Shown here: piece after piece, positions 1 through 31,018 of the stretch
How positions within the stretch are numbered: position 1 is the stretch's first letter
Layout: every line of letters begins with the position of its first letter
Source: Thermoanaerobacterium aotearoense
GTDB lineage: Bacteria; Bacillota; Thermoanaerobacteria; Thermoanaerobacterales; Thermoanaerobacteraceae
Reading direction: 5' to 3'
NCBI RefSeq assembly: GCF_009905255.1
Contig: NZ_CP047602.1
Coordinates: 2,604,691-2,668,690, forward strand
Length of the DNA: 64,000 nucleotides
Position numbers and translations under genes: made by a program
Notes under the pieces: model-generated
Database searches by the model: none
Told to the model about the DNA's origin: nothing
The model's input: only the letters and a program-made list of their open reading frames with translations

Positions 1-2211
1 AACTACATCAGGATTATATAATATTCCTGCTCTATATGTATAAAATCTATATTTAGCTCTTATTTTCTTGAGTGTAATATCGTCATATTTTGAAGTTAAG
101 CTTCCGTATTTATTGTATAAATTTTGCAATTCTAAGGATAACTGTTGTTTTAATTCATCTATCTCTTTTATAAATTTTTGATTTTCATTTATAAATGTTT
201 CTCTCCATCTGTCCACATCTAAATTAACTTTTATATATTTGGGGTAATTAACAGATGTATAATATTTGGAGAATAAGCGCACTATTCTCTTAATTATATT
301 CTTTTCATAATATATTTTTCTATTAAGCCAGTCAGGACTAATAATCAAACCTATACTTTTTAAACAATCTGAATACCAATTAACAAATACTTCTCTATTA
401 TTTTTATATACTTTATAATATTCCTTATTTATACTATATATACTATGGAGAATTCGATCTAAACGTTTCTGAAAATCATCCAGCTCCTTATCATCATAAT
501 ATATATTTTTTAAAGATGATTTATCTCCCATACTTGTTTTTTCTTTATTAATCTCAAGATATAAATCCTTAAGCTTGTTTTCAGCTTCTTTCCCCAATTC
601 TTTAATTTGTTCTTCAGTTTTCCCAAATATAAAGATATCATCAACATAGCGCATATATCCATCGTTGGTTTTACTAATAAAATATTTGTCGAAGTCATCA
701 AGATACAGATTTGCCAAAAATCCAGATGTTAATGATCCTTGTGGAAGTCCTTTGCCATTATTCACATATGGAATATGCCTTTTTATGAGAGAATTAATAA
801 ATTCTTTTAACCTACTATCTTTATATGGGATTAGCTTAATAATTTTATCGTACAATATATTTTGATTTATATTCGTATAAAATGATTTTATATCCAACTT
901 TAAATAATAATTATTTTTGTTTAAAACTTTATTAAAAGCTTTTTTCATAAATTTATAATACCAACCATACCAAAAATACTCGTAGGAATATTCTGTATTA
1001 AGTTTTTTATTTAATCTATTTCCGCAACAATTACTTGAGAATTCCCTATCAATAACAATACCGATAATATCTAAGAATGATGCTCCAGCTATCGTATTGA
1101 AAATATTATCCATAACTTTTTGTCTATCATCTTTCTCATTTTTTGGTACTTTATATCCAATAAAATCGGTATTGAATTTATATCCTTTCAGTATTTCTTT
1201 CGAAAATCTGTTAATATTATCTTCTAAATTATATTCAAATAATTTAATTGCGATCTCATCATATGGAAATTCCTTTTTCAAACTCATTCGCGCTTTAAAA
1301 AATGAAGAAAATAATTCTTTGCTATCAGCCATTTTTGATGTGGTTGTATTATAGGTAACAATAGAACCATAGTAGCTCTCATAAATTTTACCTCTTCGCT
1401 CTTTATAAAAGTATGAATTAGGGAAATTATACATGCAATAATTATATTTATTTGATTTCAAGTAATCATATCTATTATAAATTCTATTTAATATTGACTG
1501 AACTAGTCTTTGTAATCTTCCAAGATCATCAAATTTTGCAGGTTCTACGGATAATAATATTGTATGAAGAGGTTCTATTTGATGAATTATAGGGTCAATT
1601 AATTTAACTATATCTATACGTCTTTCTTTAAACTCATCTTTGACCCATTTTAATATATTGCACATAGAAATAATTAGAAAATCATTATTTATCGTATTTA
1701 ATATTTCATATATTTTTCTTATACATTCATCTTCAGGAAAATAATTATTTATCATATAAATATTAACTTCTATCAATATTTTATCACAAAATTCATTTAT
1801 TAATCTTTTAGCAATATTTATATTATACTTACTTGGTTCAACCATTATTATATTAATTTTGGGTACATGATCTTTTAATTCTTTATAAAGTATATCTAAC
1901 AATGCAAGACAAAATGTACCGGGCCCCGCCCCTATATCTAGTATTGTAATATTTTCTTGGCTAAATATTGATGTTGAAAAACTCGGATTTTGATCTTCAT
2001 ATCGATATATTATATCTTTAGCTTTATAAAAATGGGTTGAGAACCATCGATAAATATTACCTGCAACATCTTTTAAATTATATACTTGTTCTGGATTAAA
2101 GCATTCTTCAAACCCTTTACACTCTGGATTCGTTTCAAATTCTTTTATTAATTTACTATATATTTCTTCCAACTCTTTTGAAGCTCTATATTTATCGTCG
2201 ATATTTTCCAT
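1..2211 (-). CDS. SAM-methyltransferase / reverse transcriptase fusion protein (partial, C-terminus beyond window)
   Basis: I translated this frame by hand from the ATG at 2211 to position 1: 737 codons without a stop, so the protein continues past the left edge. Residues 88-130 look like a class I SAM-methyltransferase core: LDIGAGPGT (D92, G94, G96, G98), then an acidic strand end MVEPS (E125). Residues about 340-560 are a reverse transcriptase palm: KLDIKSFYTNI (motif A, D440), GLPQGSLTSG (motif B, 488-497) and YMRYVDDIFIF (motif C, D524 and D525). All three catalytic aspartates are present. A helical, lysine-rich segment follows. A GAGG sequence precedes the start. By family knowledge such solitary RTs are often antiphage (Abi/DRT-like) rather than intron-encoded, and I see no maturase or HNH domain in the visible part. 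The position beside an AvcD-like deaminase supports a defence role, which is inference. The methyltransferase's substrate is unknown. Confidence 0.85.
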   Translation of the reverse strand, partial: MENIDDKYRASKELEEIYSKLIKEFETNPECKGFEECFNPEQVYNLKDVAGNIYRWFSTHFYKAKDIIYRYEDQNPSFSTSIFSQENITILDIGAGPGTFCLALLDILYKELKDHVPKINIIMVEPSKYNINIAKRLINEFCDKILIEVNIYMINNYFPEDECIRKIYEILNTINNDFLIISMCNILKWVKDEFKERRIDIVKLIDPIIHQIEPLHTILLSVEPAKFDDLGRLQRLVQSILNRIYNRYDYLKSNKYNYCMYNFPNSYFYKERRGKIYESYYGSIVTYNTTTSKMADSKELFSSFFKARMSLKKEFPYDEIAIKLFEYNLEDNINRFSKEILKGYKFNTDFIGYKVPKNEKDDRQKVMDNIFNTIAGASFLDIIGIVIDREFSSNCCGNRLNKKLNTEYSYEYFWYGWYYKFMKKAFNKVLNKNNYYLKLDIKSFYTNINQNILYDKIIKLIPYKDSRLKEFINSLIKRHIPYVNNGKGLPQGSLTSGFLANLYLDDFDKYFISKTNDGYMRYVDDIFIFGKTEEQIKELGKEAENKLKDLYLEINKEKTSMGDKSSLKNIYYDDKELDDFQKRLDRILHSIYSINKEYYKVYKNNREVFVNWYSDCLKSIGLIISPDWLNRKIYYEKNIIKRIVRLFSKYYTSVNYPKYIKVNLDVDRWRETFINENQKFIKEIDELKQQLSLELQNLYNKYGSLTSKYDDITLKKIRAKYRFYTYRAGILYNPDVV

Positions 2212-2499
2212 CACCTGATTACCCGCCTCTTAAAATCTTCATTTGTTGAGATAGGTCTAAATATATCTTTTATAAATTGTTCTATGAAGTCCTTTGTTCT
2301 CCTTTACCTCAAATATATAATTATAACGTAAATTTTTATTTTTGATGAATACCAAAATTTATCATATATTTTTATGTAAAAATGTAACTACATTGTTATA
2401 CATAACATCGAATTACTTATCAACAGTATTTGTTTTAATTTCCGATTATTAAGAAAATTCCTCAAAAATCTGTATCACGAATTATTACATCCATAATCA
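2212..2499 (-). other. 288-bp AT-rich gap between deaminase and RT genes
   Basis: No complete gene is seen here. Read on the minus strand, the last ~80 bases before the RT start stay open in another frame (about 27 codons after a TAA near 2300) and end in a TGATG stop/start overlap with the RT gene. This frame has no ATG, GTG or TTG start, so I do not call a gene. Defence RTs often carry a non-coding RNA beside the RT gene; this is the most natural place for one, but I see no convincing fold. Confidence 0.3.
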
Positions 2500-4419
2500 T
2501 TAATACTTAATTTGGTTATTATTTTTTATATATTGATTAAACTTCTGCGCTTCTTTTTTATCATATTTAGGCCTAAATAATTTAAAATAACTAGAACTCT
2601 TTACACCTTCGAATTGTTTTATTTGAATTTCTCTATTACCATCCTTAAGAAAAATATTTTCTGATATACTATTTGGATATGGTTCTGTGTAATATATTAT
2701 ACATATTCCTGATTGAAGTATTTTTTTTGCACACAATTCACAAGGGAATGTTGTGGTATATATAACACCACCTTCCACACCCATTCCTCCTTTTGATGAA
2801 ACCTGCAGTAGTGCATTTTCCTCAGCATGTAAAGCCCTACAATATTCTAACCGTTTTATTTTGACTTTTTGTAAAATCTCATTTTTTTCATTTTTTAAAA
2901 GATTACATTTTTCTAATTTTTTCTTTATTAACTTTTCAGATTGTAAATCTTTAAAGCAAATTGAGTCCATATCATTATAATCATTCAAATCATCAGCTTC
3001 GATAATGTCTTTAAAAGTATTAACAAAATAATACTTATCAATATTTTCAATAAAATCTGTTTTTTGTTTTAAGCCACAACCAATTTGTCCGTGCGCTACA
3101 TCATTCCAACCAAAACCTAATACAAAACCATCTTTATCAGTAATAACTGCTCCAACTTTTCTCGATATACAAGATGATCTTAAGCTCAAAGAATAAGCTA
3201 AATTCATATTAGTTTCTTCTTTAGTTGGTTGAATACAACCAGGTGATATAATCAATGCATAATAGCGTAAAAATTTATCAAAAAGTTTTTTATCAAAATT
3301 TCTATCTTCATCATTATTTATTGCAATATCAGATAAATAATAACATTTGGATACATTTTGCTTAAATATCCCATTTATATCGGATTCATCTCCCCAATCT
3401 CGTTCATCTATTTGCTTAAATTTTTCTTCAAACTCCCCCTTCTCTATTTGTATCTTTCTATTTATATTATTAAACATTCTACTTTCACGATTTTCTTTTT
3501 TAGCATATATAGAAATAAGATAAAATGCATTATATCTGTTTTTAAAATAATTAACTTCTCCAGGATTTCTAAATGCATCAATAACAAAACAATTAATTTT
3601 GTTCTGATCAGATCTATTTCTGTAATACTTTATTAATCTATCAGCTTCTTCCGCAAGTATGCTAATATTATATTCTGAAAAACTATCTACTTTATCATCA
3701 AAAGAATTTCTTGTACGCCTTAAATTATTACCGAAATTTTGTAAATGGAACTCCTCTATTTCGCCTTTGAAATATTTTTCAATTTCATATTCCATAATTT
3801 GTTCTTTTATTTTATCAATTTGATCAAGCATAATATCAATTCTTTTTAGTTGATCACTATTTAATCTAGAAAAATCTTCTACTTTATAATAAAAATCTAT
3901 ATCTTTTTCAATTTTCCCCTTAGCTTTACATAATATTTCATCAAGTTCAGTATTTTTATTTTTCCATCTTATGTATTCATTACCGTGCATATTTTTAATA
4001 GTTAGCATAACGATAATTGTTGACATTGAAATGTAAACAAATTTAGGATTATTCGTATTAATAATTGTATCAAAAATTATACGATCTTCTAGGCATTTTT
4101 TTAATTCTTGTTGTAACTTATCTAACTCGCTATTATACATTTCATTTTTTATATATACATCTTTATATATATTATAATTATTTTCTGTTTTCTCTTTCTC
4201 TCCTTTTTCATAATTCCTACTATATTTCATATCTTCTTTAATTCGTCTTATTTCATCGCTTAATTTTATAATACGCTTATGTAAATTATTCTCCTTTTTA
4301 GTTATTAAATTCGAAAATCCTTTTTTATTAATCATTCCGCATATATTCTTGCCTAATGTTGTACATCCAGCTCCAATTGGACCAGTTAATCCAATAACTA
4401 AAAATGGTATGTTATACAT
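2500..4419 (-). CDS. AvcD-like P-loop NTPase / deoxycytidylate deaminase
   Basis: A 639-aa protein. The N-terminus has a nucleotide-binding loop, GLTGPIGAGCTT (residues 10-21); the Walker A lysine position is not a lysine. The C-terminal ~250 residues are a zinc cytidine/deoxycytidylate deaminase domain: HAE at 531-533 and PCELC at 559-563 supply the metal ligands and catalytic Glu. The middle is a long charged helical region. This architecture is that of AvcD, an antiphage protein known to deplete dCTP/dCMP pools and usually held inactive by an adjacent RNA (AvcI). A GGGAGG ribosome-binding site precedes the ATG. Downstream, after 288 bp, comes the methyltransferase-RT gene in the same orientation. 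It is longer than the roughly 530 aa I recall for the Vibrio protein. The defence role is inference from family resemblance. Confidence 0.8.
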   Translation of the reverse strand: MYNIPFLVIGLTGPIGAGCTTLGKNICGMINKKGFSNLITKKENNLHKRIIKLSDEIRRIKEDMKYSRNYEKGEKEKTENNYNIYKDVYIKNEMYNSELDKLQQELKKCLEDRIIFDTIINTNNPKFVYISMSTIIVMLTIKNMHGNEYIRWKNKNTELDEILCKAKGKIEKDIDFYYKVEDFSRLNSDQLKRIDIMLDQIDKIKEQIMEYEIEKYFKGEIEEFHLQNFGNNLRRTRNSFDDKVDSFSEYNISILAEEADRLIKYYRNRSDQNKINCFVIDAFRNPGEVNYFKNRYNAFYLISIYAKKENRESRMFNNINRKIQIEKGEFEEKFKQIDERDWGDESDINGIFKQNVSKCYYLSDIAINNDEDRNFDKKLFDKFLRYYALIISPGCIQPTKEETNMNLAYSLSLRSSCISRKVGAVITDKDGFVLGFGWNDVAHGQIGCGLKQKTDFIENIDKYYFVNTFKDIIEADDLNDYNDMDSICFKDLQSEKLIKKKLEKCNLLKNEKNEILQKVKIKRLEYCRALHAEENALLQVSSKGGMGVEGGVIYTTTFPCELCAKKILQSGICIIYYTEPYPNSISENIFLKDGNREIQIKQFEGVKSSSYFKLFRPKYDKKEAQKFNQYIKNNNQIKY

Positions 4420-4949: not shown

Positions 4950-6233
4950 TTATGCAGCATTCCTAATCTCTGGTCTTTTTATGTCTCTTAACATCTTATT
5001 TCCGTTGTATTTTACTCCTTTTTTCAGTATGACAAAAAATACTCTAATTAGCTTGCAGCATAAAACTATCATGGACTGTTTCTTTTTTAGCGGGTTTTCT
5101 TTTCTTGTGGTGTAGTATTTGTGCAATTCCTGAAATTCTTTATTGTTTGCAAGTATGGGCATCATCATTTTGTATAAAGTACTTCTTAGCCGCCTTCTTC
5201 CTCTTTTGCTTATGGTGGTTTGCCCTTTATGCTGCCCTGAACTATTCTCAACCAGATTGTAACCCGCAAGCTTCTGGATTTGTTTTGGATGCTCATATCT
5301 TGTTATATCGCTAACTTCAGCAATAAATGTTGCTGCTGTTATTACTCCTACACCTTTTATACCTAGCATTTCACTAGCATCAGATACTTGCATAAAAAGC
5401 TCTTCTATTTTGCTTTCTATTTCTTTAAACTGCTTTACTAGCATTTCGTACTGTTCAAGTATAATTTTTATCTCTATCTCTGCCATCTCAATGCCATCTC
5501 TTTTACCCACACTTCGACTGGCAGCTTCTATAAGCTTTAAAGCCCTCTTTATACCTACAGCACGGTTAACTTCCTTCTTCCAGGCTGCAAGTATTTCTTT
5601 GGCTCCAATACCTAATATCTTTGCAGGCGTTGGAAATTCTTTCAATGTTATCAGTGCCGCTTTCCCTTCCCAATCTGCAAAAACTTTATTAAACTCAGGA
5701 AAGTATATATCAAGCCATCTTGCAACCCGGTTCTTTATCTTATTTAAGTCTTTTGTAAGCATTTCCCTTATGTCCACTGCAATTCTAAGCTCGCTGTATA
5801 TACCCTCAGGTATATTAGGTTCAACATATCTTCCATCTTTAACTAGCATTGCAATTGTCTTAGGGTCTTTTCTGTCATTTTTAGTTGGCGAGTTATCATC
5901 AAATTCCTTACTTCTTTTTACGTGGAATGGATTTACCAGCACCACCTTATGGTTCTTATCTTTAAGAAACTGTGCAAAGCAGAGCCAATAATGGCCTGTT
6001 GGTTCCATGCCAACCATTAAATGCTCTTTGTTGCTTTTATTCATAATCTCTGCAGCCCATTTAAAGAATCTTTCCATTCCATCAATGTCATTGCTAAATT
6101 CAATACGCTTACCGTATTCTATTCCTCTAAAATCAAAAGCTCTAGCGTGATGTGTCTCTTTAGCAATGTCTACACCTACAATTAATGTCTTTTCTGTTAT
6201 TTGCAATATCTTTAAATTTTGGTTATACTTCAT
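4950..6233 (-). CDS. IS110-family transposase (DEDD recombinase)
   Basis: A 427-aa protein, full length for the family. It opens with the RuvC-like DEDD domain (LIVGVDIAKETHHARAF near residues 17-33, then VGMEPTGHYW and the D-rich KNDRKDPK segment). It ends with the Transposase_20 domain, including IKGVGVITAATFIAEV, KLAGYNL and the SKRGRRRLR stretch. A perfect AAGGAGG ribosome-binding site lies ahead of the ATG at 6233. The protein carries out RNA-guided, site-directed insertion of its element. The frame is intact, so it may be active. Confidence 0.95.
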   Translation of the reverse strand: MKYNQNLKILQITEKTLIVGVDIAKETHHARAFDFRGIEYGKRIEFSNDIDGMERFFKWAAEIMNKSNKEHLMVGMEPTGHYWLCFAQFLKDKNHKVVLVNPFHVKRSKEFDDNSPTKNDRKDPKTIAMLVKDGRYVEPNIPEGIYSELRIAVDIREMLTKDLNKIKNRVARWLDIYFPEFNKVFADWEGKAALITLKEFPTPAKILGIGAKEILAAWKKEVNRAVGIKRALKLIEAASRSVGKRDGIEMAEIEIKIILEQYEMLVKQFKEIESKIEELFMQVSDASEMLGIKGVGVITAATFIAEVSDITRYEHPKQIQKLAGYNLVENSSGQHKGQTTISKRGRRRLRSTLYKMMMPILANNKEFQELHKYYTTRKENPLKKKQSMIVLCCKLIRVFFVILKKGVKYNGNKMLRDIKRPEIRNAA

Positions 6234-6410: not shown

Positions 6411-6935
6411 TTACTTTTTATTAACATTTCTCTCCCTTATAAAATCTATATAACCCATAGCACGAAAAAGCGAACAGATTGTAAAGCTATCATTAATTGT
6501 CCCATTTAATGCCATTTGATAAACTTCATCAAAGCTTCTAAAAAGTAATTTAGATATACCTTCATCATAGCCAATCATTTCTTGTACTTTATATGAATCA
6601 ATTCCAAGAAATAATTCTACTTTATTCATTATCAAACCACTATCAGGGTAAATATATCCTAATGAAATTAAGGTTCTGCATGAATAACCTGTTTCTTCAA
6701 AAAGTTCTCTTTTTGCTGTCTCTTCCGGAGACTCTCCATTTTCGCTAAAACCACGAATAATTTCAATTTCATTTGTATTTAAAGCATCCCTTTTTATATC
6801 TAATAAAATTATTTTTCTATCTTCAGTTATCGGAATAATTGCTGCACCTGGTTTTAAGCAATATAATCTAAGAATACCATTATTTAAAATAACCTTATAA
6901 TACTTATTTTTAAACAAAGTTTCACTTGTCATCAT
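6411..6935 (-). CDS. Nudix hydrolase (ADP-ribose pyrophosphatase-like)
   Basis: A 174-aa protein with a complete Nudix box, GFSENGESPEETAKRELFEE followed by TGY (from about residue 62), including the REx2EE metal-binding core. Such enzymes hydrolyse nucleoside diphosphates linked to another group; the length and layout recall ADP-ribose pyrophosphatases, but the substrate is not shown by the sequence. Its ATG overlaps the TGA of the upstream 425-aa gene (ATGA, 4 nt), so the two are translationally coupled and probably work together. NAD- or ADP-ribose-related chemistry would fit the defence-like setting, but this is speculative. Confidence 0.9.
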   Translation of the reverse strand: MMTSETLFKNKYYKVILNNGILRLYCLKPGAAIIPITEDRKIILLDIKRDALNTNEIEIIRGFSENGESPEETAKRELFEETGYSCRTLISLGYIYPDSGLIMNKVELFLGIDSYKVQEMIGYDEGISKLLFRSFDEVYQMALNGTINDSFTICSLFRAMGYIDFIRERNVNKK

Positions 6936-8209
6936 GAGCCTTCTTTCCTCATTTTACCTTCGGAAATATTTAATTTGAAATCTTTATTTAATTTATCAAA
7001 AATGTTTATTCCAGATTTTATTTCAGTCAATTTATTTGCATTATTGGATTTAAGTTTTTCAATAGCTTCTCTCTGTTTTGATTGATATTTTTTAAAAGCT
7101 ATAGATAAACCTTTTAAAAACAATGTACTTGCTATTGTGAAAGACAAATCATTTATTAATAATCCTAATGTAATATTTATAATATCATTCGAATATTCAA
7201 ATATCTTTTCGTTTATTGTTAATTTCTTTTCTCGTTTTAATATATCTTGATATTTTTCTTTATCAATAAGTTGAGGAATTAAAACATTGATTTTATCATT
7301 ATATTTTGCAAATAGATTTACATAATCTTCATATTTATACTTTGTATTCAAATTTCTAATTGCAGAAATGTAATTTTTATACTCTGATGTTTTTCTAATT
7401 TCTACTATTTGATCAACACTCAAATTTGATAACAGTCCATAATCAAAAATTAATGTATTTATCTCATTATATTGACTTTTTATTAAATCGTGTTTGGAAT
7501 TAATTTGTTGCTCTCTGAAAAAAATCTCTTTAATTAACTTGTTATTTTCAGTTATAAAGTCAGGATATGCTACCATCAATCCATAATACTCTGGTATATT
7601 ATAATTATACAAAATATCTATAATATCAATAATTTCATTTTTTAAATTCTGAGAAACTCTATTGTTCCTCTTAATCGTATTAATTATGTCAATTCTATAT
7701 AAAACATCGTTCTTCATTACGTTTTCGATATCATTTAATATTTTTTTCCTTTCACCGTTTAACTTAAGCCTTCCAAAGTTAATTTCATTGCCAAAAAAAC
7801 TTAATACATTATAAGTAAAATTTTTACTTATAGTTTTTTCATTCCATTTAAAAATATTTTTATTTGTACTCTCATCAATTTTTTCAATATAATCTCTGTC
7901 AAGTTGCTCTTTGATAGTTTTTCTTTCACACATTTGAAAATATAAATCATTAAAATTATTAACACTATTTCTTAATAGTGGGACAATAATTCCACAGTCA
8001 ATATATTTAAATCCATCTGCTGTATCTACAAAAAAATCACGTACAATTCTATTGTTAATAAAAAAGGAATCTGCTATTGTTATTCTATCAGAAATTAAAG
8101 CGTATAGATTGACAACTGCTTTGAACAAATCAACATTGATATGATTTTCAAATACATCATCAGCATATGATAAAAAAACATCAGATGAATCAAATTTATC
8201 CTTATACAT
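6932..8209 (-). CDS. Unknown 425-aa protein coupled to the Nudix gene
   Basis: I do not recognise a family. The protein is rich in Asn, Ile and Lys and predicted largely helical. A long charged middle section is followed by a hydrophobic stretch near residues 345-370 (INITLGLLINDLSFTIAS), then a lysine-rich helix (YQSKQREAIEKLK). This could be one membrane segment or a buried helix. The GGAGTGAG before the ATG at 8209 is a good ribosome-binding site. Its stop overlaps the Nudix start. Position among defence-like genes suggests an accessory or antiphage role, which is inference. Confidence 0.8.
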   Translation of the reverse strand: MYKDKFDSSDVFLSYADDVFENHINVDLFKAVVNLYALISDRITIADSFFINNRIVRDFFVDTADGFKYIDCGIIVPLLRNSVNNFNDLYFQMCERKTIKEQLDRDYIEKIDESTNKNIFKWNEKTISKNFTYNVLSFFGNEINFGRLKLNGERKKILNDIENVMKNDVLYRIDIINTIKRNNRVSQNLKNEIIDIIDILYNYNIPEYYGLMVAYPDFITENNKLIKEIFFREQQINSKHDLIKSQYNEINTLIFDYGLLSNLSVDQIVEIRKTSEYKNYISAIRNLNTKYKYEDYVNLFAKYNDKINVLIPQLIDKEKYQDILKREKKLTINEKIFEYSNDIINITLGLLINDLSFTIASTLFLKGLSIAFKKYQSKQREAIEKLKSNNANKLTEIKSGINIFDKLNKDFKLNISEGKMRKEGS

Positions 8210-22128: not shown

Positions 22129-23511
22129 CTAATCAAAGCTTTCTATCAAAATAATATTATTGCTATATGATGCAAAATTAGCCACTTCACTGGTGAAACC
22201 ACTTTTTGAAAATAAAATATAGTACTTATTCGGATAGTCAAATAATGCACTTTTTTCTATTAAGTCATTTAAAACAGCCATGTCTATCTTTTGATTTTGC
22301 CATTTACACTCTCCAAATATTATATTATCATTATTGATAGCAACAATATCAATCTCTTCTTCACGTTTTTTATACGGATTGTTTCCCCACCATTTACCTA
22401 TTTCTTCAAAAATAAATGGAAGCTTCTTATTCTTATTTAAAATTTTAAGATAATCAGTACATATTTCTTCGTACACTAATCCCAAAAAATCATTCATTGA
22501 CGGCTTAATTTTACTTTCAATGACTTCATCAAGCAGTCCTTGCTCTATAAACGCCTTATTGTTAAAAATAAACCTGTACCAGAATCTAAAGAAATTATCT
22601 TTGATCTTATATATGCTTTTTCTGCTTTTAGCTTTTAGTTCTACAGGGGTAATTCTTTCGAGTATTTTTAGATCTATCAATGTAGAAATATATTTAGAGC
22701 ACTTATCAGTATCAACGCTTACTTTTGTAGATATTTCATTTAATTTGCTGCTTCCTGTGGCTATTGCTTCTATTATTGAGTTGTACAAAGCAGGTTCTCT
22801 TACCTCTTGCCTTAGTAATAATTTTGGTTCTTCGTAAAGATATGATGATTTATCCAATATTTTCGTCTTAATATTTTCATATACATTATATTTATCATCG
22901 AAAATACTTAAATATTGAGGAATACCACCTAAAACACCGTACGCTATAACTTGTTCTTCGAAGCTGTAGTTTGGAAAAAACTTTCTGCTGTCAAAAAAGT
23001 CAAATGGTTCGACTATTAATTGCGACGTTCTTCTCCCGTATAATGGGCTTTTATAGCTTAATACTTCTTTTTCAATAAAGCTCATAGAAGATCCACAGAT
23101 GATCAAGAAAAGTTTTGTATCTTTTAAATAGTGATCAATTAAATTTTGAAGTATCGAAGGAATACTTTTATTTGAATTAACGATATAAGGAAATTCATCT
23201 ATCACAAGGACTAATCGCTCATTTTTAGCTTTCTGGCCTAAAAACAAAAAAGCTTTTTCCCAGGATTCAAACCTGCTTACCATTTCATTCAGTCCAAAAT
23301 ATGAAAGTATTTTATCTGAGAAAGATTCAAGAGCAATTTTATCATTGTACTCTTCAGCAACAAAAAATATTGATGGTTTATCTTTACAAAATTCAGTCAG
23401 CAATGTAGTTTTCCCAACACGCCTTCTGCCATACATAACTATAAAATGAAATTTATCTTCATTGTAAAGTTTGTTTAAAGTATTAAGTTCATATTCTCTG
23501 CCAATAAACAT
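22129..23511 (-). CDS. AAA-family ATPase with DUF234-type C-terminus
   Basis: A 460-aa protein. Walker A GRRRVGKTTLL (about residues 28-38), Walker B LVLVIDEFPYIV (about 100-111), then a winged-helix region and the C-terminal nuclease-like domain containing IDIVAINNDNIIFGECKWQN (D...E-x-K). This is the widespread archaeal/bacterial ATPase family often found in multiple copies in thermophiles. Its role is unknown. Transcribed away from the cas genes, inside the island. Confidence 0.88.
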   Translation of the reverse strand: MFIGREYELNTLNKLYNEDKFHFIVMYGRRRVGKTTLLTEFCKDKPSIFFVAEEYNDKIALESFSDKILSYFGLNEMVSRFESWEKAFLFLGQKAKNERLVLVIDEFPYIVNSNKSIPSILQNLIDHYLKDTKLFLIICGSSMSFIEKEVLSYKSPLYGRRTSQLIVEPFDFFDSRKFFPNYSFEEQVIAYGVLGGIPQYLSIFDDKYNVYENIKTKILDKSSYLYEEPKLLLRQEVREPALYNSIIEAIATGSSKLNEISTKVSVDTDKCSKYISTLIDLKILERITPVELKAKSRKSIYKIKDNFFRFWYRFIFNNKAFIEQGLLDEVIESKIKPSMNDFLGLVYEEICTDYLKILNKNKKLPFIFEEIGKWWGNNPYKKREEEIDIVAINNDNIIFGECKWQNQKIDMAVLNDLIEKSALFDYPNKYYILFSKSGFTSEVANFASYSNNIILIESFD

Positions 23512-23954: not shown

Positions 23955-24755
23955 ATGCAGATTGGCGACAAAAAAAGTTTAAGGATAACGGGAACTGCAA
24001 AAAAAGAACAAAATATTCTTCTTGATGAAATTAATTATTCATTAACAAAATTCATTTACGAGACTCTTGCAAGCAATTCGCCGGAGTTTTCGCGGGAACT
24101 TCATGAAGTTGGTTTTAAAAAAAGCAAAAAAAGTTTTAAAGGAGTATGTTTTTCCCGCCCGTATTTTTCTGATTTTACCTTAAAAGAAAACGGTATTATC
24201 TCAGTTGGTAAGTTTGTAACGATTAAGGTAAGGTCACTTGTTAAAGGATTTTTGGATAATTTTATTCTTGGTTTGTATAAAAATGAAAAAATAAAAATCG
24301 GCGAAGCGGAATTTAACTTTGAAGAAGTAAAAATCTTACCGGAACTGCGATTTAAAACCGAAGAAATGTTTTATCTTGATACACCGTTAGTTTTAAGTGT
24401 TAAAGATCATTCGACCGGAAAGGCAAAATACCTGCGCTATCTTGATGATCGAGAGAAATTCAAAGAAGCATTAAAACAAAATTTAAAGGAAAAGTACAGT
24501 GCCTTTTATGGGAATGAAATTGATTTAAATGATTTTGATTTTAGCTTTGATGAAAGTTATATGGCTACTGCCGCAAAACATTCAAAACTTATTACCTACT
24601 GTGATCAGCGGATTTACGGAGAATTAGCTCCATTTACAATTAAAGCTCCAATTGAAGTTATAGAAATGGTCTATTACTCAGGAATCGGAGAAAAAAATAT
24701 GATGGGCTTTGGCTTTATTAGTAAAAAATTAAAAATAAAAGGGGGAAGGGTATAA
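23955..24755 (+). CDS. cas6: CRISPR endoribonuclease Cas6
   Basis: A 266-aa protein with tandem RAMP/ferredoxin folds. The C-terminal glycine-rich loop GIGEKNMMGFGFI (about 243-255) is the Cas6 signature. It cuts the array transcript within each repeat to release crRNAs. GGGAGG precedes the ATG. It is the first gene of the cas operon; its stop abuts the GTG of cas8. The repeat-like element in its leader suggests autoregulation. Confidence 0.93.
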   Translation: MQIGDKKSLRITGTAKKEQNILLDEINYSLTKFIYETLASNSPEFSRELHEVGFKKSKKSFKGVCFSRPYFSDFTLKENGIISVGKFVTIKVRSLVKGFLDNFILGLYKNEKIKIGEAEFNFEEVKILPELRFKTEEMFYLDTPLVLSVKDHSTGKAKYLRYLDDREKFKEALKQNLKEKYSAFYGNEIDLNDFDFSFDESYMATAAKHSKLITYCDQRIYGELAPFTIKAPIEVIEMVYYSGIGEKNMMGFGFISKKLKIKGGRV

Positions 24756-26189
24756 GTGTCTATTGATTACAGTGGTGTTTATTTGGTAGATGTTGGTATA
24801 GCTTATTTTAAATCATGGCTTAAAGCGCAAAACGGTGGAACAATTACAACTATTACAGGAAATGATGTAAGAACATTTGCTAATCAAATAAGAGGCCATT
24901 ATATAAACAATCCTGATGATTGGAAAACTTTGCAAAAAGAATTGCTATTTATTATTACGAGAAACCCGATTCGTTATAAGTCTGCGGAAAATTTATTCAA
25001 AATCAAAAACAGAGACTTGATAATTGATTTAAGCGAAGAGTATGCCAAACTGCTTGACGGGAATGCAAGTGAAGAAAGTAATGGCACCAAATGCAGTTTA
25101 TGTGGGCAACATGAAGGAGCATATCCATTGGATCGAACATTTATGCCGTATTACGTCAGCGGTACAAACTGGAATGCCAAATTTTTTCATAAAAAAGAGT
25201 TTCTCGGGTGTACAAGATGTACATTTTTCTTAACAGTAATGCCGTTCGGATTATTTAAAACCGTTATGGATGAAAACAACAAAACAACAGGCTATGCTGC
25301 TTTTCATACTGATGATGAGGAAATTTATGAAAGTATAATAGATATAGTTTATACTGAAAACAATAATTTAATAAAGTTTAAAAATGAAAATGATTTGTAT
25401 AAGGTCGTTTATAAAGCATTATCAGAATACTCTCAGAACAACCAAAGTAACCGGTACAGAACAAGTGTTGATATCTACATTTTTAACAATGATAACCGCG
25501 ATGTAGGAAATGATTTAAAAATTATAAGACTTCCGGACAGAAATATCGGTTTTATATTAGAGGTGGCAAGAGACATAAAATTCAAAAAAGATATTTCAAA
25601 AATTAACACGCTGGAATACGGCTACTTTCCAGCGTATAGAATCTTTTTAAGCGATATAAATTTTCTGCTTGGCAAGAAAACTCTCAAAACTTTTGGAGTA
25701 TGGCTTTTTAAAAACTTTTCGTTAGATTTTATTAAACTTTATTTCAAGGAGGTACTGGGTATGCCAGAAAATATTATTGACTATGGTTTTAAGTTAGCTG
25801 AAAGGTTGACGGAATTTTACAAAAAATCAAATGCCAATTTCAGAAAGATTAAATATCTAGAAAACGCTGACAGCCGTCATGAATTTGCCAGAGAAATAGT
25901 GGATATTTACAGAAGAACCGTTACAGAAGGCTGGAAACTGACAAAAAACCATGGACCCGGTGAAGTGGAAAAAATACTTGCGGAATTAAAAAAGCCTTTC
26001 GACAGCGCGAAAGAATTTTTTGATGTAATTATGAACGAGTCATACGATTGGCGGATGTTAAAGTTAATTGTTATAGCAAGGATATATGAGTTGCTGACGA
26101 ATGAAAAGTTCGTCTCTAATATTGATGATTTAGATGGTGAAATTGATAATGATTTGGAATATGAAAGTGCCGATGACAGTGTATTCTAA
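24756..26189 (+). CDS. cas8: Type I-B Cascade large subunit Cas8 (Cst1 type)
   Basis: A 477-aa protein starting with GTG directly after the cas6 stop. Two CxxC pairs (C113/C116 in CSLCGQ, C152/C155 in GCTRC) form a zinc finger typical of the Cst1/Cas8a1-b proteins of the Tneap subtype. The large subunit recognises the PAM and helps recruit Cas3. The C-terminal 60 residues are acidic. A 106-bp gap to cas7 follows. Confidence 0.85.
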   Translation: MSIDYSGVYLVDVGIAYFKSWLKAQNGGTITTITGNDVRTFANQIRGHYINNPDDWKTLQKELLFIITRNPIRYKSAENLFKIKNRDLIIDLSEEYAKLLDGNASEESNGTKCSLCGQHEGAYPLDRTFMPYYVSGTNWNAKFFHKKEFLGCTRCTFFLTVMPFGLFKTVMDENNKTTGYAAFHTDDEEIYESIIDIVYTENNNLIKFKNENDLYKVVYKALSEYSQNNQSNRYRTSVDIYIFNNDNRDVGNDLKIIRLPDRNIGFILEVARDIKFKKDISKINTLEYGYFPAYRIFLSDINFLLGKKTLKTFGVWLFKNFSLDFIKLYFKEVLGMPENIIDYGFKLAERLTEFYKKSNANFRKIKYLENADSRHEFAREIVDIYRRTVTEGWKLTKNHGPGEVEKILAELKKPFDSAKEFFDVIMNESYDWRMLKLIVIARIYELLTNEKFVSNIDDLDGEIDNDLEYESADDSVF

Positions 26190-26295
26190 ATAAATATTTA
26201 AACAGAATGATTAAAAGGCTTCAAGGAAACTTAAATTTTAAGATGTGAAACAAATTTATTGTCTGCAAAAATAATCATACGAGGAGGAATATCTT

Positions 26296-27339
26296 ATGAA
26301 TTTTGCACAAGGGATTTTTATGTTTAATGTAGACGCCGGAGCTTTAAATAACCTGAAAAATGACAAAAAGGGAGATGGAACCACTATTACCAGAACAAAG
26401 AAAATTGTGACATATGATGCAAACGGTCACCGCAAAACCTATGTTTTAGTATCTGCACAGTCTTACAATCACTTTATTCAGGCAACGCATATGGATAAAT
26501 TTAAAGCAAAATACTCTATAAAAACAAAAGAAGGCAAAAAAGTTAATTACGAAGTTGATCCTGTAAAATATGTTGATCAAGACTTAAGAGGTTATATGGA
26601 AACCGATCAAGGTTTATCAAGGATAGCACCATTTAAATTTTCGCACCTGATATCGGTAAACGGCGTTGAAATTTTAGAATCATTCAACACCACCAGCACT
26701 GAAGGTGACAATATGATTTACCAGTACGAAATCTATAAAACCCATTTTAAAGGGAAATTTAACATTGATTTAGACACTGTCGGCAGATTTGAAGCACGTA
26801 ACAAAAGCGGTTACCAAAATATCAACGATGATTTAATTAAAAAATATGATGAAGAAGAAGAGTATAAAGAAATTATTCATAAGGTTGACAAAGAAAATAA
26901 GGTGGTTGTTTTAACTGCCAAAGAAAGGGCAAAAAGAATAAGCGAATATTTAAAATCTCTGAACTATATTCAGGGTGGTGCTAAACTGACAAATAACTTT
27001 GAAAATATTGCACCGCAGTTCATTATTCTTGTTATTGTTGAGAGCGGTAATAATATTCTGGCTAATGTAATACATGAATCTGGTGAATATGGCAGCGGAT
27101 TTAAGGTTAATTTTGAGGTATTGAAAAAAATGCTTTCAGCCTATAAAGATGATTTAAAGTCAAAAGTTTATATCGGGAGAAATGAAGGATATCTTGACAG
27201 TCTGCAAACAGAAATTGACAGATTTATTAAGGAAATGAGCGAGGAAAAAATAGAAGTTGTAAATGACATTGTAAAAAATGTAATTGACAAATTTGAAGAA
27301 GAAATATGTGCCTTTTACTGCCACGCTGATAGTAATTAG
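26296..27339 (+). CDS. cas7: Type I-B Cascade backbone Cas7 (Cst2/DevR)
   Basis: A 347-aa RAMP protein. The start NFAQGIFMFNVDAGALNNL and the later RIAPFKFSHLISVNG are typical of the Cst2/DevR Cas7 group. Multiple copies coat the crRNA. GAGGAGG precedes the ATG. The KGDGTTITRTKK stretch near residue 30 is a lysine-rich RNA-contact loop by analogy. Confidence 0.9.
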   Translation: MNFAQGIFMFNVDAGALNNLKNDKKGDGTTITRTKKIVTYDANGHRKTYVLVSAQSYNHFIQATHMDKFKAKYSIKTKEGKKVNYEVDPVKYVDQDLRGYMETDQGLSRIAPFKFSHLISVNGVEILESFNTTSTEGDNMIYQYEIYKTHFKGKFNIDLDTVGRFEARNKSGYQNINDDLIKKYDEEEEYKEIIHKVDKENKVVVLTAKERAKRISEYLKSLNYIQGGAKLTNNFENIAPQFIILVIVESGNNILANVIHESGEYGSGFKVNFEVLKKMLSAYKDDLKSKVYIGRNEGYLDSLQTEIDRFIKEMSEEKIEVVNDIVKNVIDKFEEEICAFYCHADSN

Positions 27340-27348
27340 CAGCTTTTT

Positions 27349-27382
27349 TAAGATATGTACGAATATGTCCGTACATATCTTA
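27349..27382 (+). promoter_or_regulatory. Perfect hairpin between cas7 and cas5
   Basis: A 13-bp perfect inverted repeat (27349-27361 with 27370-27382; arms taagatatgtacg / cgtacatatctta) with an 8-base loop. No T-run follows, so it is unlikely to be a strong terminator. It may stabilise or process the mRNA so that cas7 is made in excess over cas5, or be a binding site for a regulator. Confidence 0.7.
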
Positions 27383-27407
27383 GGATTATTAAAAAAGGAG
27401 TGAAAAA

Positions 27408-28064
27408 ATGAAGGTTGAAAAAGCCGTAAAAATCAAAATTACCGGTTGGACAGCAACTTTTACAAATATATTTTTTAAGACGGGGAAAATTTTAGCATAC
27501 GAAATGCCGCCTCTTTCTTCATTAATAGGACTGCTTTCGGCAGCTAAAGGGGAAGTTATAAAAGATGTTGATTTTAAAATCGGTTATGAATTTACTTATA
27601 GAGCAAAATCATGGGATGCAGAAACTTACTATAAAGCAACGAAGAGAAAAGATGCTAAAGGCGAATCATCTGTATGGTTTAAGAATTTTTTATATGATGT
27701 GGAATTAAATTTGTATTTAACCGATTTAAGTTTTACCGACTATTTCAAAAAACCCCGCTACACTATATTGTTGGGGCAAAGCCACGATCTTGCCACAGTA
27801 GAAGAGATTAAAGAAGTTGATCTTATAAAAACAGGGAAAGGAACCATAAACAATACGGCAGTTTCCGTTAGCACAAAAGGGGTTTCGGGAGTACCGATTA
27901 TTATGCCGGTGAAAATAGATTTGGATACAAGAGAGATTTTAAACCAAAAACCGTTTATTATTATTAAACGGCCTGTAAGTATTGAAAATGATAATATTTA
28001 TATGGTAAAAGGAGAAAACAAGGATGTGTATCTCTATTCCCCGGAGTTCATCAACGCTTGCTAA
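27408..28064 (+). CDS. cas5: Type I-B Cascade subunit Cas5 (Cas5t)
   Basis: A 218-aa protein starting after AAAGGAG. The N-terminal RAMP strand VKIKITGWTATFTN and the segment YEMPPLSSLIGLLSAAKGE (PxPxTxxGLL-like) are typical of Cas5, which caps the crRNA 5' handle. Its last 41 bases overlap the start of cas3. Confidence 0.9.
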   Translation: MKVEKAVKIKITGWTATFTNIFFKTGKILAYEMPPLSSLIGLLSAAKGEVIKDVDFKIGYEFTYRAKSWDAETYYKATKRKDAKGESSVWFKNFLYDVELNLYLTDLSFTDYFKKPRYTILLGQSHDLATVEEIKEVDLIKTGKGTINNTAVSVSTKGVSGVPIIMPVKIDLDTREILNQKPFIIIKRPVSIENDNIYMVKGENKDVYLYSPEFINAC

Positions 28065-30369
28065 TTATTCTTGTTTAAATGATGTTCTTGCAAAAGATGA
28101 CGGAGAAACGCTTATTGAACATACAAAAAAGGTTGTTAAAGTTCTAATAGAACTGAAAAATCTTTTTGAGAATGCGGGAAGTTACTTTGGTGATGATCTT
28201 CTTTTTGAAAAAGTATATATTGCTGGGTTGCTTCACGATTTAGGGAAAATAATGCCCAGCTTTCAAATTGCAGTTCAGAATAAATCGCACTGGGATTTAA
28301 GGCACGAAGTTGCTTCACTTTTCTTGATTGGTGATATATATATTAACGGGAAAAAACTTGACGAGAATGAAATCATTGATATTTATACAATTATAGTAAC
28401 ACACCACAAATCTTTAAAAGATTTAAAAGAAAAATGGATTGGATATATTGAAAAATCGTTTATTGAAGTAACAAAAGGAAAAATCGAAGAAGGAATAGTT
28501 GAGCTTGCTAAATTGCTTGAAGCAGATCGTTTGTCTGCAAGAAGGATATACCATGATATATTTTTAGAGTATGTAGATTATGTCAAAAAAACTTATAACG
28601 GCCTTACAGGTAATATTTTGGATTTGGATATTATAAAAAATTACAGCGAGAGCCGGTTTTTTCAAAGATTTGACAGGATATATGATATAGTGCAGGATTC
28701 GAAAAGAAAGCAAAAATTAATTTTTATGATAGGGCTGATGAAATCTGCCGATCATCTTGCGTCTTCCGGACAAACAGAAATAGTCAAAATAAAGATTGAT
28801 TTTAAGATATTTGAAAAAGGAATAAGATTATATTCTACCCAAGAAAAGGCTTCAAAAATAAAGGACGATGTTTTACTAATTGCACCGACAGGTTCAGGTA
28901 AAACTGAAGCGGCATTATCCTGGGCGAAAAATAATATGAAAGACAGTGACAATGACCGAATATTTTATCTGCTACCTAATATAGCAAGTATAAACAAAAT
29001 GGTAGAGAGATTACAAAACATCTTCGGTAAAGACAAGGTCGTGCCAGTTCACAGTAAGACTGCATTTAAAATATACGAAAACTTTATTGAAGAAAAAACT
29101 TTTGAAGAGTTATCGGAAGAAGAAAAGCGCAAAATAAATAAAAATGTTTCTCAGCAAAAAAGTTTGATAAAGAAAATTCATTTTCCGGTGAAAGTAGCCA
29201 CTATTTACCAGTTGTTGAAAAATGCTTATTATATAGGCGATTATGAAATCAACTTTGCCGAATTATACAATGCAAGAGTTATAGTTGACGAAATTCATGC
29301 TTACGAAAAAGAAGCTGTGTGTAAATTAATTATTTTTTTGAAGTTTTTGAAAGAGAACTTTAACACCAAAATTATGATAATGTCGGCAACCATACCAACG
29401 AGTCTGCAGGAGTTTATAATTAAAAAATTGGGTATTGAAAATGTATTAAAAATGAAAGATGAAGAACTTGAATCTTTTAACAGACATATTGTTTTCAGGT
29501 TGCCTGGGACACTGATGGACTATGTTAATGAAATAGCATGTAAAGTAAGAAACGGGAAAAAAATTCTGGTGGTTGCTAATACCGTTGAAACAGCTCAAAA
29601 TCTATACAAGATTTTAAAGGACAAACTATCTGACAATTGCATTAAAGAAGAAGGTATTAAACTTTTACACAGCCATTTCACTTTAAAAGACAGGGATAAA
29701 ATAGAAGAAAAGGTTGGAGATTATAAATTGCTTGTGGCTACACAGATAGTAGAAGTTTCTTTAAATATCAGTTATGATGAGCTATATACCGAACCAGCAC
29801 CGCTGGACGCTTTGCTGCAAAGGTTTGGACGCATAAACCGCTTTAGAGAAAAAAGGGAGCTTGCACCCGTATTTATTGTTGAAAAAGATATTAATGAAAA
29901 AGGTTATCCTTATAGGGATAGAGAAGTAGTGGAAAAAACTTTAGAATTATTTAAAGAATCACCGGTTAAACTTGAAGAAAAAGCAATTCAAAAAATGCTT
30001 GATGAAGTATACAGTAGTTATGATTATGAAGTGTTTTTAGATCCGAGGCTACATAACTACTTAAATGAATTGCTTACCGAAAAATATGACAATAAAGACT
30101 TAAGAAAACAGTTTTATGAAGAGTTTGACGGCATAACGGTATATCCTTTTGCTTTCAAGGATAAAGTGATAGAATCAATAGATAGCAGGGATTTTTATGA
30201 GTTGGAACTTTATAAAATTTCGTTAAACCTGGGAACTGTACTGGGATTAATGAAAAAAAGATTAATAGAACAGGAAAAAATAAATGGTATTCCGATAAAT
30301 TTTGTAAAGTGCTATTATGACAGTGAGATTGGTTTGGACAAAAACAGGCCACTGGAAATCAAAAAGTAA
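28024..30369 (+). CDS. cas3: CRISPR helicase-nuclease Cas3 (HD fused to helicase)
   Basis: A 781-aa protein. The HD nuclease domain is N-terminal (H33 in EHTKK, H71-D72 in GLLHDLGK, THHKS later); the SF2 helicase follows with Walker A APTGSGKTEAALSW near residue 285, DExH box VDEIHAY near 421, and SATIPT and QRFGRINR motifs. It unwinds and degrades target DNA. Key residues are all present. ATG at 28024 lies inside cas5 with GGAG upstream, so the genes are translationally coupled. Confidence 0.94.
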   Translation: MCISIPRSSSTLANYSCLNDVLAKDDGETLIEHTKKVVKVLIELKNLFENAGSYFGDDLLFEKVYIAGLLHDLGKIMPSFQIAVQNKSHWDLRHEVASLFLIGDIYINGKKLDENEIIDIYTIIVTHHKSLKDLKEKWIGYIEKSFIEVTKGKIEEGIVELAKLLEADRLSARRIYHDIFLEYVDYVKKTYNGLTGNILDLDIIKNYSESRFFQRFDRIYDIVQDSKRKQKLIFMIGLMKSADHLASSGQTEIVKIKIDFKIFEKGIRLYSTQEKASKIKDDVLLIAPTGSGKTEAALSWAKNNMKDSDNDRIFYLLPNIASINKMVERLQNIFGKDKVVPVHSKTAFKIYENFIEEKTFEELSEEEKRKINKNVSQQKSLIKKIHFPVKVATIYQLLKNAYYIGDYEINFAELYNARVIVDEIHAYEKEAVCKLIIFLKFLKENFNTKIMIMSATIPTSLQEFIIKKLGIENVLKMKDEELESFNRHIVFRLPGTLMDYVNEIACKVRNGKKILVVANTVETAQNLYKILKDKLSDNCIKEEGIKLLHSHFTLKDRDKIEEKVGDYKLLVATQIVEVSLNISYDELYTEPAPLDALLQRFGRINRFREKRELAPVFIVEKDINEKGYPYRDREVVEKTLELFKESPVKLEEKAIQKMLDEVYSSYDYEVFLDPRLHNYLNELLTEKYDNKDLRKQFYEEFDGITVYPFAFKDKVIESIDSRDFYELELYKISLNLGTVLGLMKKRLIEQEKINGIPINFVKCYYDSEIGLDKNRPLEIKK

Positions 30370-30953: not shown

Positions 30954-31018
30954 CTCGAATACGCTATTTTACTGGTGCGCCCGACAGGATTCGAACCCGT
31001 GGCCTTTTGATTCGTAGT
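30949..31018. repeat. Right attachment-site copy: 70-bp direct repeat inside tRNA-Arg
   Basis: Identical to 21129-21198. Here the repeat is continuous with the 5' half of the tRNA, so the gene stays intact. Confidence 0.93.

Follow-up and report, generated by a model that had tools for sequence, protein, structure and literature searches.

A UG25-class reverse transcriptase with an N-terminal methyltransferase domain and a DUF1848 partner in a variable island of Thermoanaerobacterium aotearoense

The defining survey of UG reverse transcriptase (RT) classes is reportedly that of Mestre et al. 2022. In the literature, class 1 UG RTs are characterized by an RT domain joined to an alphaRep domain and by untemplated synthesis (PMC13174585). 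Protein priming has been described for AbiK, AbiA and Abi-P2, and the priming tyrosines of AbiA lie in the loop which links the RT and the helical domain (PMC9508834, PMC11077055). In DRT1, an RT-nitrilase of class 3, DNA synthesis activates the fused nitrilase (PMC13275509). UG25 has also been used by the authors of myRT, with six founding sequences and 25 after expansion (PMC8934634). Searches of the open-access literature for UG25, for DUF1848 and for DRT systems combining an RT with a methyltransferase yielded no study of this class; UG25 is catalogued, apparently without experimental study.

Gene structure, class and relatives

The window analyzed here, a stretch of 64,000 bases, is the right end of a single contig of 2,668,690 bases and begins at base 2604691. 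On its minus strand a frame is open from GTG 2214 or ATG 2211 to the window edge (738 and 737 codons, respectively), with GAGGCGG preceding the ATG and the GTG lying one codon earlier. This bears out the continuous frame of 737 codons described in a sequence-only reading of the window, which had also placed D92 within LDIGAGPGT, D440 and YVDD (522-525) correctly. The C-terminus, cut off in that reading, could be completed with the sequence reaching left of the window (L002; window position equals L002 position minus 12691): the gene runs for 560 further bases, ends at L002:12131 and encodes 923 amino acids from the ATG. The features discussed below are located as follows.

1..2211, minus strand: methyltransferase-RT gene, residues 1-737 of 923; last 186 codons and stop at L002:12131-12691; RT_UG25 match, E 2e-122
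1342..2184, minus strand: N-terminal SAM-methyltransferase domain, residues ~10-290, predicted from the Rossmann model, METTL17/Rsm22 fold match, PADLOC UG25 positions 6-254 and Methyltransf_28
1915..1941, minus strand: SAM-binding motif I LDIGAGPGT, residues 91-99; D92, G94, A95, G96, G98 and T99 unchanged in all five UG25 proteins
493..1323, minus strand: RT domain (fingers and palm), residues ~297-573; RVT_1; RT structures match the full-length model over 289-573
892..894, minus strand: motif A with the catalytic aspartate D440, unchanged in all six sequences
637..648, minus strand: YVDD, residues 522-525, invariant in six of six sequences
1..216, minus strand: start of the C-terminal helical (alphaRep/HEAT-like) domain, residues ~666-737, continuing to ~897 left of the window; alphaRep profile match, all-helical model, AbiK alignment
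2212..2499, minus strand: intergenic stretch upstream of the RT gene, 288 bases; no conserved RNA found
2500..4419, minus strand: anti-phage dCTP deaminase-like neighbour, 639 amino acids; PADLOC dCTPase, E 9e-111

The best match of the protein among the PADLOC profiles is RT_UG25 (PDLC03763), which aligns over residues 10-915 with profile positions 6-862 of 870 (408 bits). RT_UG35 (PDLC03774), matched in its N-terminal methyltransferase and its RT part, comes second for the whole protein with 328 vs 408 bits, and the remaining RT profiles are far behind. When scanned alone, the methyltransferase domain matches RT_UG25 over positions 6-254 (E 1.9e-28) and RT_UG35 over positions 9-209 (E 4e-16), which makes the fusion a part of two catalogued classes; the relatives in L008 and L009 likewise match the methyltransferase part of the class profile. 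The sequence-only reading had rightly seen a methyltransferase and an RT of defence type. Its claim that this fusion is absent from the described DRT/UG classes does not stand, as the search against the DRT/UG/Abi profiles it had proposed places the whole protein, methyltransferase included, in RT_UG25. The listed partner of this class, RTasDUF1848 (PDLC03815), is also present, and nothing essential distinguishes the locus from UG25. Membership in this already catalogued class is strongly supported by the ranking of PADLOC profiles, which is a different measure from a place in the published RT tree.

UG25 is rare: matches were obtained in 5 of the 398 genomes sampled from the phylum, and for one of these (G023, L011) UG35 is the better fit. 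None of the eight other genus members contains a UG25 RT. Five loci were usable: the window locus, L008 from a Thermoanaerobacterales MAG (the closest relative), L009 from a Clostridia bacterium, L010, whose scores for UG25 and UG35 are nearly the same, and L014 from Syntrophaceticus schinkii. Frame changes interrupt both L010 and L014. The methyltransferase domains of the UG25 proteins are 26-41% identical to each other. As the SAM-motif residues are invariant in all five of these proteins and the RT catalytic residues in all six aligned sequences, the observation is not a product of chance. Searches of plasmids and phages by tblastn returned other RTs only, over 12-47% of the protein, and neither the viral contigs searched for UG25 relatives nor a single-sequence scan of genome contigs yielded any. 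The UG25 frame of L008 extends upstream of its first ATG, GTG or TTG, with an ACG codon following the stretch GGGGGGAG (L008:7860-7960), so that the start of this gene may be non-standard or mutated.

RT, C-terminal and methyltransferase domains

The RT domain is recognized by Pfam (RVT_1, E 6.6e-21). In the full-length AlphaFold model (pLDDT 75.3, pTM 0.75) residues 666-896 are all-helical, and a profile search matches designed alphaRep proteins. The protein has the architecture of class 1 UG/Abi RTs, an RT domain followed by an alphaRep/HEAT-like domain. The RT and C-terminal part of the model aligns with AbiK (7r06) over residues 302-897 (458 aligned, Z 16.3) and with AbiA over 364 residues (Z 17.6). 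As single-domain RTs (DGR, group II) score above AbiK, with Z 25-27 over the RT part (289-573), it is the C-terminal part, together with the alignment of six sequences, that carries the class 1 reading. AbiK, AbiA and Abi-P2 share the RT and C-terminal helical domain with UG25, but have neither a methyltransferase nor a DUF1848 partner, and by sequence AbiA resembles UG25 in the RT part only (NCBIfam AbiA, 50 bits at a cut-off of 250). All six sequences share two tyrosines, Y592 and Y613, which follow closely on the RT domain. Given their location, which is comparable to that of the AbiA priming tyrosines in the loop between RT and helical domain, either of them is a candidate for the priming residue.

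The intact RT active-site motifs and the 288 bases upstream of the RT gene would also be compatible with a mode of action as in class 2, in which an RNA encoded nearby is copied to cDNA and the methyltransferase modifies this RNA or the product, an idea already put forward in the sequence-only reading. The stretch 2212..2499 has no Rfam match, though, and the intergenic stretches of the five loci, which are few and divergent sequences, share no significant similarity. Moreover, the DUF1848 gene abuts the RT gene upstream in L009 and L014, so that an ncRNA could not be accommodated immediately ahead of the RT gene there. A class 2-like mechanism is quite improbable, although with so few sequences compared an RNA that has diverged or lies downstream may have been missed; no conserved ncRNA near the RT gene emerged from Rfam or from the intergenic comparison.

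For the N-terminal domain, AlphaFold (based on five aligned sequences) predicted a Rossmann-type alpha/beta fold (mean pLDDT 76.9, pTM 0.78), in line with the methyltransferase which had been read from its motif. The features of class I SAM-methyltransferases are present, i.e., the Rossmann fold, a glycine-rich motif I and an acidic residue after strand 2 (D92/GAGxG/E125), and Methyltransf_28 of Pfam barely exceeds its cut-off (24.6 vs 23.3 bits). D92, G94-G96, G98, T99, E125, N185 and W189 do not vary among the five UG25 proteins covering these positions, with N185 and W189 being located after strand 4. Neither the DNA-amino motif IV [DNS]PP[YFW] nor the C5 motif PCQ occurs anywhere in the methyltransferase-RT protein.

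The top structural matches of the N-terminal model are METTL17/Rsm22 chains (Z 14-16 over 224-236 residues; best Z 16.1 over 230), followed by plant GRAS domains (Z 12-13) and other methyltransferases (Z 10-12). While the fold is alike, sequence likeness to METTL17/Rsm22 is confined to motif I (hhalign probability 55%, 44 columns), and METTL17/Rsm22 have no RT part. As read from the alignment, Rsm22 carries a Cys cluster to which the UG25 domain has no counterpart. METTL17 holds SAM, and a methylating activity has been shown for it in no organism (PMC11785013). As this is the closest fold, the UG25 domain may likewise be a scaffold: it would bind SAM without methylating, either as a part contacting RNA or the ribosome or as a SAM sensor, and the RT alone would be the effector. 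This reading agrees with the ranking of solved folds (Z 14-16 vs next 10-13) and with the missing motif IV of DNA-amino or C5 methyltransferases. Yet the SAM-contact positions are invariant at 26-41% domain identity, a stricter conservation than one would expect of a mere scaffold, and the positions after strand 4 are invariant as well. A scaffold or sensor, the strongest of the competing readings, appears somewhat unlikely.

DUF1848 partner and genomic island

The gene neighbouring the RT gene matches the partner profile RTasDUF1848 with E 4e-98. In each of the five UG25 loci the RT gene has a DUF1848 gene as its direct neighbour, which lies downstream of it in the window locus, L008 and L010 and upstream in L009 and L014. 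All five RT-linked DUF1848 proteins have kept the radical SAM cluster motif CX3CX2C (CPNGCYYC and equivalents). As Pfam Radical_SAM stays below its cut-off on the DUF1848 protein (14.7 vs 29.5 bits), the protein counts as a putative radical-SAM-like enzyme. Of 199 genomes of the phylum, 61 encode members of the DUF1848 family, most of them free-standing and without an RT, and because of these free-standing copies the role of DUF1848 in the RT system is known by neighbourhood only. The support in a DUF1848 tree of seven rows is too weak to tell whether the RT-linked copies form one clade.

The host has two more DUF1848 genes. One of them is free-standing and converges, tail to tail, with a gene for Rsm22 (PF09243, E 4e-83; L022:404-2334). 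A general pairing of DUF1848 with Rsm22-type methyltransferases was considered on account of this locus and was rejected, being found at only 2 of 31 free-standing loci, both from the same genus.

The UG25 pair is part of a variable segment of about 36.3 kb, which reaches from L002:7391 to window position 30970 between tRNA-Arg(CCT) and tRNA-Arg(ACG). The corresponding site is empty in the genus member G016, where the left flank (ending at L002:7390) adjoins the right flank (from window position 30970). The segment contains AbiE genes, the UG25 pair, the dCTP deaminase and cas genes of type I-B. Among the parts of it that were read, none revealed an integrase. The AbiEi/AbiEii pair is found at L002:8387-9759 on the minus strand, 1.4 kb past the DUF1848 gene (PADLOC, E 1.6e-102 and 1.4e-87), and the type I-B CRISPR-Cas genes at 23955-30366 on the plus strand (cas6, a weak cas8b match, cas7, cas5 and cas3). 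Further genes on the minus strand encode an ATPase of the PADLOC candidate family PDC-S27 (22132-23511, E 6e-63), a putative IS110-like transposase (4950-6233), read from the sequence, between the deaminase and NUDIX genes, with about 530 adjoining non-coding bases, and a protein of 425 amino acids without PADLOC match (6932-8209), whose gene immediately precedes the NUDIX gene and overlaps it at the end. Elsewhere, the UG25 operon of L009 lies beside a gene for DruA of Druantia (L009:10673-11854, plus strand; PF14236, E 2e-67).

This setting bears on the question of whether the locus serves defence at all. One might argue for a chromosomal RT that serves housekeeping or a mobile element, given the DUF1848 relatives in 61 of 199 genomes, mostly without RT, and given that no paper showing defence by UG25 was found in the open-access literature. 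Against this stand the rare and patchy occurrence of UG25 (5 of 398 genomes, 0 of 8 other genus members), the position inside a variable island with defence genes, the vicinity of DruA at another UG25 locus and the existence of frameshifted UG25 copies, which together render a non-defence role very unlikely.

The dCTP deaminase-like protein matches NCBIfam antiphage_deaminase with 316 bits, below the cut-off of 400; it has about 200 residues beyond the 437-position model and is perhaps of a divergent AvcD type. Its gene shares the strand of the RT gene and precedes it by 285-288 bases, and both proteins act on dNTPs or use them, so that it might belong to a three-gene operon in which it depletes dCTP and thereby feeds or starves the RT. 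As the other UG25 loci lack a dCTP deaminase of this kind, the gap between the two genes is long and the island houses still other defence systems, such an operon is highly improbable. The deaminase was not retained as a third component of the UG25 system; it probably forms a system of its own and merely shares the variable island.

Possible mechanism

On balance, the most likely of the readings, for which even chances are assumed, is that of a class 1 polymerase similar to AbiK, protein-primed and untemplated. Through its DNA adduct it would control the SAM-dependent part of the protein, be it an effector or a scaffold, which works with DUF1848. The RT would make DNA without a nucleic-acid template, primed on its own Y592 or Y613, and the resulting adduct would set the oligomeric state of the UG25 protein and hold or release the attached SAM-dependent domain. 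This domain and DUF1848 might then attack a target of the host or the phage, for which RNA or the ribosome may be considered, and infection would thereby be aborted. Control of the SAM domain and DUF1848 by protein-attached DNA is inferred from the analogy to AbiK/AbiA and DRT1, and the same conditional sense applies to priming, to template independence, to the methyltransferase as an effector and what it would act on, and to defence itself. DRT1 resembles UG25 in that an RT is fused to a second enzyme, for which the logic of a DNA-controlled effector is proposed here. Its effector, though, is a nitrilase in the C-terminal part, and it has no N-terminal methyltransferase.

A further variant, in which the untemplated protein-primed polymerase controls two SAM enzymes altering the DNA adduct, RNA or the ribosome, or is itself modified by them, is considered unlikely. 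If true, the combination of methyltransferase and radical-SAM chemistry on an adduct, RNA or the ribosome would be new for DRT systems.

The order Thermoanaerobacterales includes thermophiles, and as the closest relative of the protein comes from this lineage, it may offer a stable protein suited to structural analysis. UG25 appears as a rare class which joins an Abi-type polymerase to two putative SAM enzymes. If the polymerase governs both of them, DNA synthesis could switch on group-transfer chemistry, comparable to the activation of the nitrilase in DRT1.
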